From the IMG/VR virus record IMGVR_UViG_3300047463_000307, positions 1-24,939 of that record: a stretch of DNA of 24,939 nt; one strand, given 5' to 3'. Below, in pieces: positions 17,443 to 22,544 of this stretch. Position 1 is the stretch's first letter, and each line of letters begins with the position of its first letter. The position numbers were made by a program, and so were the translations under genes. Below the pieces are notes generated by a model. That model was not told the DNA's origin and made no database searches. It worked only from the letters and a program-made list of their open reading frames with translations. Origin of the DNA: a virus.

Positions 17443-17877
17443 ATGAAAGGTTTCTTCAAGCCACAATTTCCCCACAAGTACAAGGGTAATCCTACTCAGA
17501 TAGTCTATAGGTCTAGCTGGGAGCTAAAGCTCATGAACCATCTGGACAAGCATCCAGACGTCATGGAGTGGCAGTCTGAGGAGTTCTTCATACCGTATCG
17601 GTCTCCCGTGGACAGAAAGATCCACCGCTACTTTCCAGACTTCCTGGTCAAGAAGAGAGAAGCCAACGGCGCGGTTAAGACCGTTCTGATAGAGGTAAAG
17701 CCTGAGAAGCAGACTAAACCTCCCAAGCATCCAGGAAAGGTTACCAAGCGTTACATCAACGAGGTCTACACCTGGGGCGTCAACAAGGCCAAGTGGAATG
17801 CCGCGGAGGAATACTGTCTAGACCGCGGCTGGACCTTCCACGTGTTTACTGAGAAGCAGCTCGGCATAGCATGGTAA
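17443..17877 (+). CDS. 4: Head completion protein gp4 (nuclease-like fold)
   Basis: 144 residues, as in T4 gp4 (150). The start (FFKPQFPHKYKGNPTQIVY) and the core follow cyanophage gp4. Acidic residues fit a PD-(D/E)xK-type nuclease core: E27 in SWEL, D66 in FPDF, then E84-V-K86 in LIEVKP. gp4 acts after DNA packaging to complete the head so that tails can attach; the nuclease chemistry is predicted from the motif. It opens the plus-strand late operon and overlaps the next gene by 7 nt. The ATG is only 3 nt past the palindromic promoter and has at most a weak GAG ribosome site. Confidence 0.85.
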   Translation: MKGFFKPQFPHKYKGNPTQIVYRSSWELKLMNHLDKHPDVMEWQSEEFFIPYRSPVDRKIHRYFPDFLVKKREANGAVKTVLIEVKPEKQTKPPKHPGKVTKRYINEVYTWGVNKAKWNAAEEYCLDRGWTFHVFTEKQLGIAW

Positions 17878-18467
17878 CTACTGTATTTCAGACGCTGGCT
17901 GAGCGTACTACTGATATGGAGATGAGCGAGAAGGCAGCGCGCAATTGGTATAGAGCCGAGGCCTCTAAGGTCAAGCGCGTCAACGCCAATGAGGTAATAG
18001 ACCCAAAGAACCTCAGGACGGACCTAAACGCTCAGAACATAGGGCAGATGTTCATGTTCTTCTACAACCCTAAGCACAAGCAGACGCTGCCATACTACGA
18101 CATGTTCCCGCTGGTATTTCCAATAAAGCTATATACCGATGGCTTTCTGGGTCTAAACCTGCACTATCTGCCGAGAAACTATCGCGCCAAGCTCATGGAC
18201 GCTCTGTACTATACAATAAATAACCAGAAGAATGATAAGACGACGAGACTGAGGATAACCTACAGCATACTGGAGTCTAGCTCGAGAATGAGATACTTCA
18301 AGCCATGCGTTAAGAGATACCTAGACGATCACGTCATGCAGAGGTTTATATACATAGATCCTGAGAACTGGGACAAGGCGTTAATGCTTCCAACAGAGAG
18401 ATTCATGAAGAAGCCAGCTAACTACGTACACAGAGACAGTGTTAATTCCTTGAGAGTAACACCATAA
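17871..18467 (+). CDS. Structural/packaging-associated protein, possibly gp2 DNA end protector
   Basis: 198 residues. A conserved-looking segment MFMFFYNPKHKQTLPYYDMF, followed by PLVFPI and then DGFLGLNLHYLP, is shared with proteins next to gp4 in cyanophage-like genomes. In T4 the gene beside gp4 is gene 2, whose product protects the DNA ends in the filled head, so gp2 is a reasonable guess. It is not proven here: T4 gp2 is larger (274 residues) and I see no diagnostic motif. The start overlaps the gp4 stop (ATGGTAA), and an alternative ATG lies at codon 16. The stop overlaps the next ATG (TAATG), so the three genes are probably translationally coupled. Confidence 0.5.
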   Translation: MVTTVFQTLAERTTDMEMSEKAARNWYRAEASKVKRVNANEVIDPKNLRTDLNAQNIGQMFMFFYNPKHKQTLPYYDMFPLVFPIKLYTDGFLGLNLHYLPRNYRAKLMDALYYTINNQKNDKTTRLRITYSILESSSRMRYFKPCVKRYLDDHVMQRFIYIDPENWDKALMLPTERFMKKPANYVHRDSVNSLRVTP

Positions 18468-19243
18468 TGCCGTTCGATCTAGAGACGTTTAAGTCCCACC
18501 TGTCTAAGACTGGAACTCTACCGACTAACAAGTTTGAGGTAGACATTGAAATCCCACGAGTATTATGGAATACAGAAGTATTAGTAAATAACTTGCGCAG
18601 GCCGCAGGTGACATTCGGAGAGACTCTAAGCTTCAGGGCTGAGTCGGTGCGGGCGCCCGGCGTGACGCTTCAGACCACCGCTGTGAATCGATATGGCTAT
18701 GGACCGCAGCAGAGGTTTCCATATAACGCCAATTTCACAGACAGCTCAATGACGTTTATCGCTGACAAGCAGAGTCTGATCTGGATATTCTTCTACAACT
18801 GGTTAAACAACGTGTTTGCCTATACCTCGCTGGACAGTCCAAACACTGAGTCTTATCTAAACTATCGATCCAACTACATGTATGACTACGCGGTAAAGAC
18901 TAAGATAAACATCTATGATAACGACGGCAAGCCGTCTACGTCCGTCGAGCTGATAGACTCTTATCCGGTAAGCATGAACGACATCGCGCTGTCGTGGGGA
19001 GACACTAACCAGCTAAAAAGAATAACCGTAACGTTTGCGTTTCGTCACTGGCGTCTGACAAACGTAATTACGTCCGATGGATCGACTAAGGCGTCCGGAC
19101 CAGCTCCTCTTCTTGTACCACCTAGAGGTCAAACAGTAGAAAATATTCAACCTCATCCAGACTCTGTACAGAATGAACAAGGTCAATGGCAAAATAAAGG
19201 CAGTAGAAAAGCTCCACCTAGACAAATAAATAATCAAGATTAA
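18467..19243 (+). CDS. 54: Baseplate-tail tube initiator, gp54-like
   Basis: 258 residues (T4 gp54: 320). The start (FDLETFKSHLSKTGTLPTNK) parallels T4 SLEEFNNQ...FQRN. The C-terminal half, VKTKINIYDNDGKPS, then VELIDSYPVSMNDIALSW, then GDTNQLKRITVTFAFRHW, parallels T4 DIQVNLHSRNGLP...GCIPISVSAPELSYDGDN...TFDVTFAYR. It has the tail-tube fold and should cap gp48 and nucleate gp19 tube polymerisation. A second tube-fold protein such as a gp19 paralogue is the main alternative. The last 45 residues are a polar Pro/Gln-rich tail in a distinctly AT-rich stretch. The start overlaps the previous stop by 1 nt. Confidence 0.75.
   Translation: MPFDLETFKSHLSKTGTLPTNKFEVDIEIPRVLWNTEVLVNNLRRPQVTFGETLSFRAESVRAPGVTLQTTAVNRYGYGPQQRFPYNANFTDSSMTFIADKQSLIWIFFYNWLNNVFAYTSLDSPNTESYLNYRSNYMYDYAVKTKINIYDNDGKPSTSVELIDSYPVSMNDIALSWGDTNQLKRITVTFAFRHWRLTNVITSDGSTKASGPAPLLVPPRGQTVENIQPHPDSVQNEQGQWQNKGSRKAPPRQINNQD
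19225..19232 (+). promoter_or_regulatory. Putative late promoter for gp26 and tape-measure genes
   Basis: AATAAATA within the last codons of gp54. RNA would begin near 19238, about 39 nt before the gp26 ATG, which has its own CGAGG ribosome site. Motif and position only. Confidence 0.38.
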
Positions 19244-19276: not shown

Positions 19277-19987
19277 ATGACGCTGCCGAAAATTAGTCAC
19301 CCTACTTTCAGATTAACAGTACCGTCGTCTAAGAAGCAGCTTACCTTTAGACCGTTCTTGGTCAAGGAGGAGAAGATCCTTCTCATGGCTAAGACTTCTG
19401 ACGACAACAACGATATCCTATCGGCCGTAAAGCAGGTGGTAAACAACTGCTGCCAGGAAAACAACTTCGACGTGAACAAGCTCACTATATTTGATCTCGA
19501 GTATCTGTTTCTCAAGATTAGATCCAACTCGGTGGGCAACATGGTGCCGCTGTCGTTCAAAGATCTCGAGGACGACAAGGAGTACAAGTTCGAGGTAGAC
19601 CTCAACACCATCGAGGTCAAGTTTCCAAAGAACGTCGACAGCAGGATCAAGATTGATGACAAGACCGGAATCGTAATGCGATATCCAAGCGCGTCTCTAT
19701 ACGACGACAAGGACTTCCTATCGCTCGGTCAGGACGCCATGTTTGAGCTTATGCTTCGCTGCGTGGATAAGATCTACAGCGGCGACGAGATGTTTGATCC
19801 CAGCAGCTACACGCGCGAGCAGATGGCAGACTTCATGGACGGGCTGGACGTAAAGACGTTCGAGAAGATACAGGAGTTTCTATCAAGCGCTCCAAGCATG
19901 AGCCACACGCTGACCTATAAGAACTCGCTAGGGCACGACCGCAAGATTGAGCTGACGACTCTAAACGATTTTTTTACGTTGCGCTGA
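19277..19987 (+). CDS. 26: Baseplate hub assembly protein gp26 (T4 baseplate family)
   Basis: 236 residues (T4 gp26: 208). The N-terminus (PKISHPTFRLTVPSSKKQLT, then FRPFLVKEEKILLMA) and the middle (FDLEYLFLKIRSNSVG) are the signature of the T4 baseplate family that includes gp26 (Pfam T4_baseplate). gp26 takes part in hub assembly in T4; in other contractile phages the gene in this position encodes a tail assembly chaperone made in two frames. A GAGG ribosome site lies 7 nt before the ATG. The normal stop is at 19985-19987. A slippery T-run four codons earlier allows a -1 shift into a second frame, giving a 294-residue fusion. Confidence 0.88.
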   Translation: MTLPKISHPTFRLTVPSSKKQLTFRPFLVKEEKILLMAKTSDDNNDILSAVKQVVNNCCQENNFDVNKLTIFDLEYLFLKIRSNSVGNMVPLSFKDLEDDKEYKFEVDLNTIEVKFPKNVDSRIKIDDKTGIVMRYPSASLYDDKDFLSLGQDAMFELMLRCVDKIYSGDEMFDPSSYTREQMADFMDGLDVKTFEKIQEFLSSAPSMSHTLTYKNSLGHDRKIELTTLNDFFTLR

Positions 19988-20038
19988 GCCACAACACGCT
20001 AGAGAACTACTACAAGACAGTTTTCGCTCTGGCTCAGC
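19969..20038 (+). promoter_or_regulatory. -1 programmed ribosomal frameshift signal
   Basis: Seven T residues (19969-19975) are in the correct register: T, TTT, TTT, with the last two as gp26 codons. After a 7-nt spacer, GCTGAGCCA (19983-19991) can pair perfectly with TGGCTCAGC (20030-20038), giving a GC-rich 9-bp stem over a 38-nt loop. Slippery heptamer, spacer and stem match the classical -1 frameshift layout. The zero-frame stop lies inside the 5' arm of the stem. Confidence 0.8.
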
Positions 20039-20160
20039 ACCATAAATACTCAATAACCGACGTGGAGAACCTGATACCGTTTGAGCTTGACATCTACATA
20101 GACATGATAAAGGAACACGTCAGAGAGCTAGAAGAGAAGCAGAGAAACAACGGCGGGTAA
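19975..20160 (+). CDS. gp51-like hub assembly extension, reached by -1 frameshift from gp26
   Basis: In the -1 frame the codons after the slip read YVALSHNTLENYYKTVFALA, then QHHKYSITDVENLIPFELDI and YIDMIKEH, with 61 residues to the stop at 20158-20160. The frame has no ATG near its beginning. The only in-frame ATG (20104) and GTG (20062) would give about 18 and 32 residues, so independent translation is unlikely. The helical, aromatic-rich sequence fits the small protein encoded between gp26 and the tape-measure gene in related phages, which corresponds by position to T4 gene 51 (hub assembly factor). The fusion would resemble the G-GT tail assembly chaperones of lambda. The stop overlaps the next gene's ATG (TAATG). 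Confidence 0.75.
   Translation, partial: YVALSHNTLENYYKTVFALAQHHKYSITDVENLIPFELDIYIDMIKEHVRELEEKQRNNGG
20041..20048 (+). promoter_or_regulatory. Possible late promoter ahead of the tape-measure gene
   Basis: CATAAATACTC within the frameshift ORF shares ATAAATACTC with the strong promoter upstream of SprT. It would start RNA about 105 nt before the 20160 ATG. It is inside coding sequence, so support is weak. Confidence 0.25.
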
Positions 20161-22544
20161 TGGCTAAGAAACCTCGTACGAAGAATAAGAAGATCGATAG
20201 CTTTGATACCAAGAAAGGTATCGAGAGATTTATAGACGATCTTATGGAGGTGGCGCCGACCGCTAAGGGCGCGAGAGCTCTAGCCCGTGAGAAGAGCATG
20301 GGAGCCACAGGCGGCCTGGCTAAGTCTCTAGACCCGATTATCAAGCGCATCTCTGCTACAGACAAGTTTTCGCGCGCCGAAGCTTCCAAGAGCAGCAGAA
20401 AGATCGAGGAGAACCACCAGGAGATTCAGAGACAGGCTGTCTCCATAAGCGTGCTTGAGGCGAAGACACGCGACCTCGCCGCCAAGGCTGAGAGAGCTCT
20501 GGGCATGGCCGAGGAGTTCTCTAAAAACTTTCAAGATTTCAAGAAAAATATAGACAAGCAGTTCAAGAAGATAGAAGACGAGATTAAGAAGAAAGACTCG
20601 ATGTGGGGAGACATGCTCGACGCGGCTATGGGCGCCGCGGCTCTATCTCTCACGAAGAAAGGCGGTGCTGTCGCTAAGAAAGGATTCGACGTAGCTAAGA
20701 AAGCTGTATCAAAGCTGAGAGGCGGTGTCGGTGGTTTGGTGGCTGGTGTTACTCTAGACTTGGCTAGAGACTCACTGAAAGAATCTGGTCACGAGAGACT
20801 AGCCGGAGGCGCCGACGTTCTGTCTAGCGCTCTTACCGGCGCGTCGGCAGGTGCGCTTATCGGATCTATAATACCAGGTCTTGGAACCGCGGTTGGCGGG
20901 GCGATCGGCGGTGCTGTCGGCGGTGCGACAGGATTGATTCAGAACTGGAGCAATATTTTTGGAAAGGGACCGCAGGAATCTGCCGCAATCAAGTCTGCTA
21001 GACAAGAAGGACAAGCTCCAGCACCTGCGCTAGCGCCAGCAACGAGCGGTGGCTCGGCCGCCACTTCAATTTCTAGACCTGCAGCCGGCGGAATGCCAGT
21101 CGATACGTCTGGACTCAAGGGTGTCGGTGAGACTGGTACGACGATTAAGGCCATGCAGATACTGACCGGCAAGGGATGGACTACCGAGCAGGCGGCCGGC
21201 ATAGTTGGTAATCTACAGATGGAATCTGGGCCTGACATGAAGACAAACGCTGTTGGTGACGGCGGCAAGGCCTATGGTATAGCGCAATGGCATCCGGATC
21301 GTCAGGACAGATTCAAGCAGCAGTTTAAGAAAGACATCCGCGAGGCTGGCTTCGAGGAGCAGCTGGAGTTCTTAGACTGGGAGATAAAGAACGTAGAGAC
21401 TCAGGCCTATAGAGCGCTGAAGGAGGCGAGGACAGCTCGCGAGGCGGCTATAGCCTTCGACCGCTACTACGAGAGGTCGAGTGGGGCTCACGTGGCGCAG
21501 CGCGTCGCCAACGCCGAAGCCATAATGAAGAGTCCTAGCCAGAGTGGAGTAACACCAGGCGCTACAGACGAGATGGGAAGACCGCTACCAGGATCTATAC
21601 CAGACGCGAAGCCTGTGGAGAGAGGTGTTCAGCCAGCCGGCACAAACTTTGGCGCGCCAAACCCAAGCGCTGGCGAGGCTAGAGACGTAAGCTCTGGATA
21701 CAAGCCTCCAGCTGGCGCAGCCGGCATGCCTCCAAACGTTCGACTTGGATCCGGCGTCAACATATCAGCTGTCGACAAAGACTTGCTCTCTAGATTCTTT
21801 AGCGCCGCGGCTGAGTACGGGCGCCCCGTCACTATAGAGTCAGCGGCTCGAGACGACAAGAAGCAGGCCGAGCTATGGGTGCGTGGTCGCATATTAAGAG
21901 AGCCTGGAATATACATGCCGGCCCCTCCTAAAACACCGCAGCGAGTAACTGTTAACGGCAGAGAATACGACGTGCCTGGCGGCGGCAGGGGTAGCGCTCA
22001 CGCCGATGGGCAGGCCATAGACGTTCCTCAGGCTCCACAGATGGCGGGAGTTCTACAGAAGTACGGGCTGTCGATACCGTTCGGCGGTAGCGATCCAGTA
22101 CACATACAGAAGATAGGCTACACGCCTGTAGGAGGAGCTCCCATGGGATCTATGGGAGTGCCTCAGGGACAGCTAACTCAGCCATACGTTAGCCCAACGC
22201 AGACAGCGATGAGAGGGTTGACCTCCGCGATGGGAGGCGGGCGAGGGTCTACGATACCGACTTCGATGGGAGCCATGGCCACCACTCCAGGCGTAGGACC
22301 AATGGCCGGACTGCTCAGCACTATGGCGATGGGTGGAGCTAGAACCATGGTGCCTCAGTCTCCAGCGGGAATCATGGGTCTGGTGGGAAGCCTCTTCACC
22401 GCTCTCAACAACCAGAACCGCGGCAACAACCCGCAGTTTAACTCAGACACCTATAGAGACAACCGCGTGCCGTCAGCCATGCCGCCGGCAAACATACTGC
22501 GCGAGGTGTTTGGCATGGACGTACCAACAGCTTACAGACCATAA
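20160..22544 (+). CDS. Tape-measure/hub protein with lysozyme-like and M15-type peptidase domains
   Basis: 794 residues. Residues 80-147 are charged and heptad-like, probably coiled coil. Residues 220-262 form a Gly/Ala-rich hydrophobic segment with GxxxG spacing, common in tape-measure proteins and likely membrane-active. Residues 328-456 match phage tail lysozymes (GIVGNLQMESG with candidate catalytic E355, and YGIAQWHPDRQDRF). Residues 535-652 resemble D-Ala-D-Ala carboxypeptidase/VanY-type M15 enzymes: SxHxxGxAxD at 612-621 (H614, D621) and H648 in DPVHIQ are the likely zinc ligands. The C-terminus is Met/Gly/Pro-rich. It likely supplies local peptidoglycan digestion during DNA entry, a job done by gp5 in T4. 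Its place after gp26/gp51 corresponds to T4 gp29. Tape-measure function is inferred. Confidence 0.78.
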   Translation: MAKKPRTKNKKIDSFDTKKGIERFIDDLMEVAPTAKGARALAREKSMGATGGLAKSLDPIIKRISATDKFSRAEASKSSRKIEENHQEIQRQAVSISVLEAKTRDLAAKAERALGMAEEFSKNFQDFKKNIDKQFKKIEDEIKKKDSMWGDMLDAAMGAAALSLTKKGGAVAKKGFDVAKKAVSKLRGGVGGLVAGVTLDLARDSLKESGHERLAGGADVLSSALTGASAGALIGSIIPGLGTAVGGAIGGAVGGATGLIQNWSNIFGKGPQESAAIKSARQEGQAPAPALAPATSGGSAATSISRPAAGGMPVDTSGLKGVGETGTTIKAMQILTGKGWTTEQAAGIVGNLQMESGPDMKTNAVGDGGKAYGIAQWHPDRQDRFKQQFKKDIREAGFEEQLEFLDWEIKNVETQAYRALKEARTAREAAIAFDRYYERSSGAHVAQRVANAEAIMKSPSQSGVTPGATDEMGRPLPGSIPDAKPVERGVQPAGTNFGAPNPSAGEARDVSSGYKPPAGAAGMPPNVRLGSGVNISAVDKDLLSRFFSAAAEYGRPVTIESAARDDKKQAELWVRGRILREPGIYMPAPPKTPQRVTVNGREYDVPGGGRGSAHADGQAIDVPQAPQMAGVLQKYGLSIPFGGSDPVHIQKIGYTPVGGAPMGSMGVPQGQLTQPYVSPTQTAMRGLTSAMGGGRGSTIPTSMGAMATTPGVGPMAGLLSTMAMGGARTMVPQSPAGIMGLVGSLFTALNNQNRGNNPQFNSDTYRDNRVPSAMPPANILREVFGMDVPTAYRP

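Follow-up and report, generated by a model that had tools for sequence, protein, structure and literature searches.

Tail assembly chaperones of T4-like phages were reportedly recognized in 2022 by Vladimirov, Gautam and Davidson in the proteins gp26 and gp51, which are said to be made with frameshifting in some of these phages and from separate genes in others. PMC10885494, PMC10274946 and PMC12846349 refer to that work (Virology 2022, 566:9-15) for the chaperone role of gp26 and gp51; PMC12846349 credits it with the poly-T site for -1 slippage that T4-like phages have where TAC-N ends, and PMC10274946 mentions T4-like phages with one short and one long gene. A review from 2016 (PMC5009743) still treated T4 as exceptional among phages with long tails. 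In PMC3004832, T4 gp26 and gp51 appear in Table 2 as chaperones of hub assembly, with a text according to which gp51 is not in the particle, whereas gp26 is assigned to the hub by some genetic data. The pair gpG/gpGT of phage lambda, with its equivalents in P2 and HK97 (Xu, Hendrix & Duda 2004), is the functional model for such proteins. In Vandenendeviridae and Andersonviridae, exemplified by phage Adele, TAC-N and TAC-NC are likewise made by -1 frameshifting before the tape measure gene (PMC12846349).

Here we analyse IMGVR_UViG_3300047463_000307, an uncultured virus record whose entire length of 24.9 kb constitutes the window. We consider it highly probable (roughly 93%) that a -1 frameshift at the sequence T_TTT_TTT yields gp26 and a gp26-gp51 fusion as the tail-chaperone pair of this virus. 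These are the same genes as in the study of Vladimirov et al., and the window is a clear new example of a known arrangement, published in 2022 for T4-like phages; a preliminary description of this DNA, made from its letters, had suggested gp26/gp51 as a possible chaperone pair and was right in outline, the idea being already in print. What we add is the documentation of an uncultured clade, with its covarying stem and its missing second start, and an explanation of the short cyanophage gp51 and of the gp51 reported missing in Aeh1. No sequence homology was found between the window pair and the lambda, P2 and HK97 proteins, and the window, unlike lambda, has the heptamer T_TTT_TTT followed by a covarying stem. 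The system of phage Adele differs by its shorter motif, GTTTTT, and belongs to other phage families.

Gene context and the slippery heptamer

A DNA search of phages with the window returned only a 46-bp match, and protein searches were therefore used. From position 17443 the plus strand encodes proteins of head closure, the DNA end protector and the tail tube, along with gp26, its extension and the tape measure protein; the minus strand has further large ORFs, among them a tail tube cap gene. The tail tube gene (18467..19243, plus strand; phrog_45 tail tube, E 4e-32) lies upstream of gp26 (19277..19987, plus strand), which is read from ATG 19277 to TGA 19985-19987 and encodes the short form, TAC-N, of 236 aa, matching Pfam T4_baseplate (PF12322, E 3.6e-57) and phrog_150 (E 2.9e-62). 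It is followed by the -1 frame extension (TAC-C, gp51-like; 61 codons and a stop, 19975..20160, plus strand) and directly downstream by the tape measure protein gene (20160..22544, plus strand; phrog_9570 tail length tape measure protein, E 4.7e-36), whose ATG overlaps the stop of the extension, in agreement with the position before the tape measure gene that had been claimed for the junction. gp26 and the extension are located between the tail tube and tape measure genes, where a TAC-N/TAC-NC pair is to be sought.

Structures were predicted for gp26 and for a natural T4-type gp51, each folded separately. The AlphaFold model of gp26 (pLDDT 89) resembles those of other gp26-family members. A search of PDB sequences with the gp26 profile gave no match, and Foldseek gave none in the PDB with E <= 0.001; the HK97 chaperone (gp13) structure 2ob9 was hit weakly (probability 0.41/0.25, E about 2).

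The last codons of gp26 are GAT TTT TTT ACG TTG CGC TGA, which brings T_TTT_TTT (19969..19975, plus strand) into the zero-frame register needed for simultaneous slippage, and a 7-nt spacer follows (19976..19982, plus strand); both elements had been noted in the preliminary description at just these places. We collected relatives by a search of viral contigs (80 loci, 62 distinct junctions) and inferred a FastTree tree of gp26. TTTTTTT was present at all loci that reach the junction, it is invariant in the 62 distinct junctions, and on the tree the seven T and the preceding GA underwent 0 changes, compared with a median of 14 third-position changes (range 5-19) in 16 conserved two-fold codons of gp26. 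Elsewhere in gp26 of the related contigs, Phe is encoded by TTT in only 525 of 800 cases, and Asp by GAT in only 962 of 1280. Thus, this X_XXY_YYZ heptamer in the zero-frame register is conserved beyond coding need.

According to the proposed mechanism, most ribosomes on gp26 would stop at the TGA at 19985 and release the short protein of 236 aa, while a minority would slip back by one base on T_TTT_TTT, aided by the downstream stem, and read 61 more codons to produce a predicted gp26-gp51 fusion of 294 aa, join(19277..19975,19975..20160). Gene order, homology, conservation, covariation and the anatomy of the sequence are shown by the analysis, and both the occurrence and the rate of slippage at this site we infer. 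If lambda G/GT is taken as a model, the short form may coat the tape measure protein, the product of the next gene, tail tube subunits may be recruited by the extension of the long form, and neither form would remain in the virion; the chaperone role of gp26 and of the predicted fusion is suggested by this analogy and by the literature. Two paralogous genes supply these proteins in the T4 group, 26 the short and 51 the long one.

A covarying stem downstream of the heptamer

The 5' arm of the stem, GCTGAGCCA (19983..19991, plus strand), holds the gp26 stop TGA and pairs with the 3' arm, TGGCTCAGC (20030..20038, plus strand), by 9 Watson-Crick pairs closing a 38-nt loop, and the stem starts 7 nt past the heptamer. 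The 75 nt located 3' of the heptamer fold with z = -4.6 compared to dinucleotide shuffles. The stem had been described as a perfect one of 9 bp, which is true for the window, but not always for its relatives: all 9 pairs are intact in 33 of 61 ungapped junctions (shuffle mean 18, maximum 24). Canonical pairs fill 88% of the stem cells in these 61, versus 20-43% in slid registers, in which a perfect stem was found in none of the 61 junctions. Watson-Crick pairing reaches 0.809, as compared to 0.778 +/- 0.006, with a maximum of 0.800, in 1000 codon-preserving shuffles, in which sequences exchange nothing but synonymous codons and which, unlike a parsimony count, ignore relatedness. By parsimony on the tree there were about 18 compensatory changes, of which two neighbouring pairs account for 13 (one pair with 8 of the type GC to AT, the next with 5 of the type CG to TA). 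At least one pair is broken in several relatives, so the stem is common rather than universal, and those that keep it have equal spacing. The covariation exceeds what coding constraint explains, and the stem is of the kind expected of a frameshift stimulator, i.e. a structure 5-9 nt past the heptamer supported by covariation.

Strong but different hairpins are present just past the heptamer in the cyanophages S-PM2 (locus L082, 2217-2260; z -3.5) and P-SSM2 (locus L094, 2217-2252; z -2.8). Different clades thus seem to have different stimulators.

The -1 frame extension and the question of its own start

The -1 frame of the window is open from 19951 to 20160 and ends with the stop TAA 20158-20160; reading after the slip from TAC 19975-19977 gives a peptide of 61 aa, YVALSHN...NNGG. 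Its match to phrog_634 (E 7e-24) supports its identity as gp51, in keeping with the earlier label of a gp51-like extension. Every extension detectable in relatives by tblastn lies in the -1 frame. The changes in the extension are distributed over the codon positions as 176/125/362, and this excess at third positions of the -1 frame is the pattern expected if the extension is translated as a protein; the -1 ORF is under coding selection and, in most of the distinct junctions, has no start of its own.

The extension might nonetheless be an independent small gene, expressed by reinitiation or from a non-ATG start without any fusion, and in cyanophage and other records gp51 is indeed annotated as a separate CDS of 50-60 aa with an ATG near the gp26 stop, while the TAATG of Ackermannviridae, devoid of a heptamer, favours an independent start there. 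However, ATG, GTG and TTG are absent from the -1 frame of the window between the point where it opens and residue 14 of the extension, in line with the earlier statement that this frame has no plausible start, and equally from most other distinct junctions (45 of 62, window included); moreover, in many junctions the frame opens only at the heptamer itself. An independent gp51 also leaves the invariant heptamer and the covarying stem unexplained, and T4 gp51 is itself a full fusion (see below). We consider this alternative very improbable, and reject an independent second start for the window, yet not for all of its relatives. Relatives with a start of their own or without the heptamer, which the preliminary description had named as refuting cases, did not overturn the frameshift reading, as in the aligned junctions the heptamer and the -1 frame are always kept, a start is mostly absent and the stem covaries. 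Most members of the clade, including the window, lack an alternative start, and the clade offers a clean natural case where a second product is possible by frameshifting only.

Cultured relatives, T4 gp51 and evolution of the pair

Together with the -1 extension, T_TTT_TTN was found in the cyanophages S-PM2, P-SSM2 and P-TIM68, Pelagibacter phage HTVC008M, Methylophilales phage Melnitz-3, Sinorhizobium phage phiM12, Rhizobium phage RHph_I1_9, Aeromonas phages CC2, avDM12 and Aeh1, Cronobacter phage LPCS28, Vibrio phage nt-1, Stenotrophomonas phage Ps15, Delftia phage PhiW-14, Nitratidesulfovibrio phage SRB7757 and Pseudoalteromonas phage XG4. In these phages and in further viral contigs the heptamer is T_TTT_TTT, TTC, TTG or TTA. 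This variation bears on transcriptional slippage, by which a polymerase could make a fusion mRNA on a seven-T run: the TTC, TTG and TTA variants cut the run to six, and an RNA stem that covaries at a fixed distance of 7 nt fits slippage of the ribosome, which leaves the transcriptional mechanism with a very low probability. An artefact of sequencing or assembly, with gp26 and the extension being one continuous ORF, might be suspected from a homopolymer exactly at the junction, but is already refuted by the relatives and practically negligible, as the same frame relation is shared by dozens of independent contigs and by complete genomes of cultured phages. Several of these genomes have TTTTTTC or TTTTTTG instead, a zero-frame stop comes soon after the heptamer in them, and T4-type gp26 lacks the extension altogether.

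An ATG of the second ORF lies at or near the gp26 stop in S-PM2, phiM12, RHph_I1_9, Ps15, PhiW-14, nt-1 and XG4, where reinitiation could yield free gp51 in addition. In HTVC008M (locus L085, 2702-2890) and Melnitz-3 (locus L133, 2696-2893) the gp51 annotation begins at an internal ATG, some 50 nt past the gp26 stop, which trims off the conserved start of the extension. In the Ackermannviridae ChubbyThor and BX-1 and in Vibrio phage D524, which groups with them, the -1 extension is combined with a TAATG overlap (L135, 2801; L137, 2678; L141, 2570), and their gp26 homologs carry a shorter run of T in place of a canonical X_XXY_YYZ heptamer.

Sullivan et al. 2010 (PMC3037559) reported that cyanophage gp51 has about 20% of the T4 length, without the first ~200 residues, and that gp51 is missing in Aeh1. 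Both oddities are explained by the frameshift, because in both cases gp51 is the -1 extension of gp26; in Aeh1 it is present, unannotated, behind T_TTT_TTC between gp26 and the next gene. The extension is unannotated also in CC2, LPCS28 and avDM12, and the gaps left empty after gp26 in these four genomes, as well as the separate-gene annotations of gp51 in cyanophages and other T4-like genomes, should be changed.

In T4, gp26 and gp51 are encoded on opposite strands, which agrees with their earlier portrayal as separate genes, but gp51 is not a mere second ORF. PF12322 matches T4 gp26 (8.8e-64) as well as gp51 (3.9e-52, residues 1-201 only), the hhalign alignment of gp26 with gp51 ends at gp51 residue 202 (97%, E 6e-11), and the extension aligns with residues 211-246 at the C-terminus of T4 gp51 (90%, E 1.5e-6). 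From these comparisons T4 gp51 is recognized as a whole gp26 paralog with the extension in frame. The predicted products of the window have the corresponding composition, with a TAC-N that is PF12322 and a long form comprising PF12322 and the gp51 C-terminal extension. T_TTT_TTN is absent from T4-type gp26 genes.

In a tree of 50 proteins, a branch with support 100/97 separates T4-type gp26 and gp51 from all frameshift-type gp26 together with Ackermannviridae, and the window groups with phiM12 (97/87). Judging from the sequences compared, the frameshift design prevails in the sampled groups of T4-like phages, and the T4 group is the one in which the genes were separated; the lambda-style strategy formerly suggested for one branch is thereby supported, but not as a peculiarity of that branch. 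Because Straboviridae of Aeromonas, Cronobacter and Vibrio frameshift, the simplest explanation is that frameshifting was replaced in the T4 lineage by a single duplication, and frameshift first, gene duplication later would be the simplest reading of the direction of change in a tree with a midpoint root only. More tentatively, and with odds that we put clearly below even, all these observations may be combined: the 9-bp stem with its 38-nt loop and the gp26 stop in its 5' arm would be a clade-specific covarying stimulator, the gp51 part would work only as a fusion in this clade, most of whose members have no other start (relatives with the stop/start overlap may make both fusion and free gp51), and the different sets would mark steps by which frameshifting was supplemented or replaced, by a separate ORF in some Ackermannviridae and by duplication in T4.

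In Enterobacter phage EC-F2 (Pseudotevenvirus; locus L140, 2501-3794), a gp51-like and a gp26-like gene follow each other on the same strand and overlap by 8 bp, which differs from the divergent arrangement in T4. For T4 gp26 (locus L083, 3803-4429, minus strand) there is a weak match (E 9e-4) to phrog_1140 of the gp28 family, 'baseplate hub distal subunit', a possible further relative.
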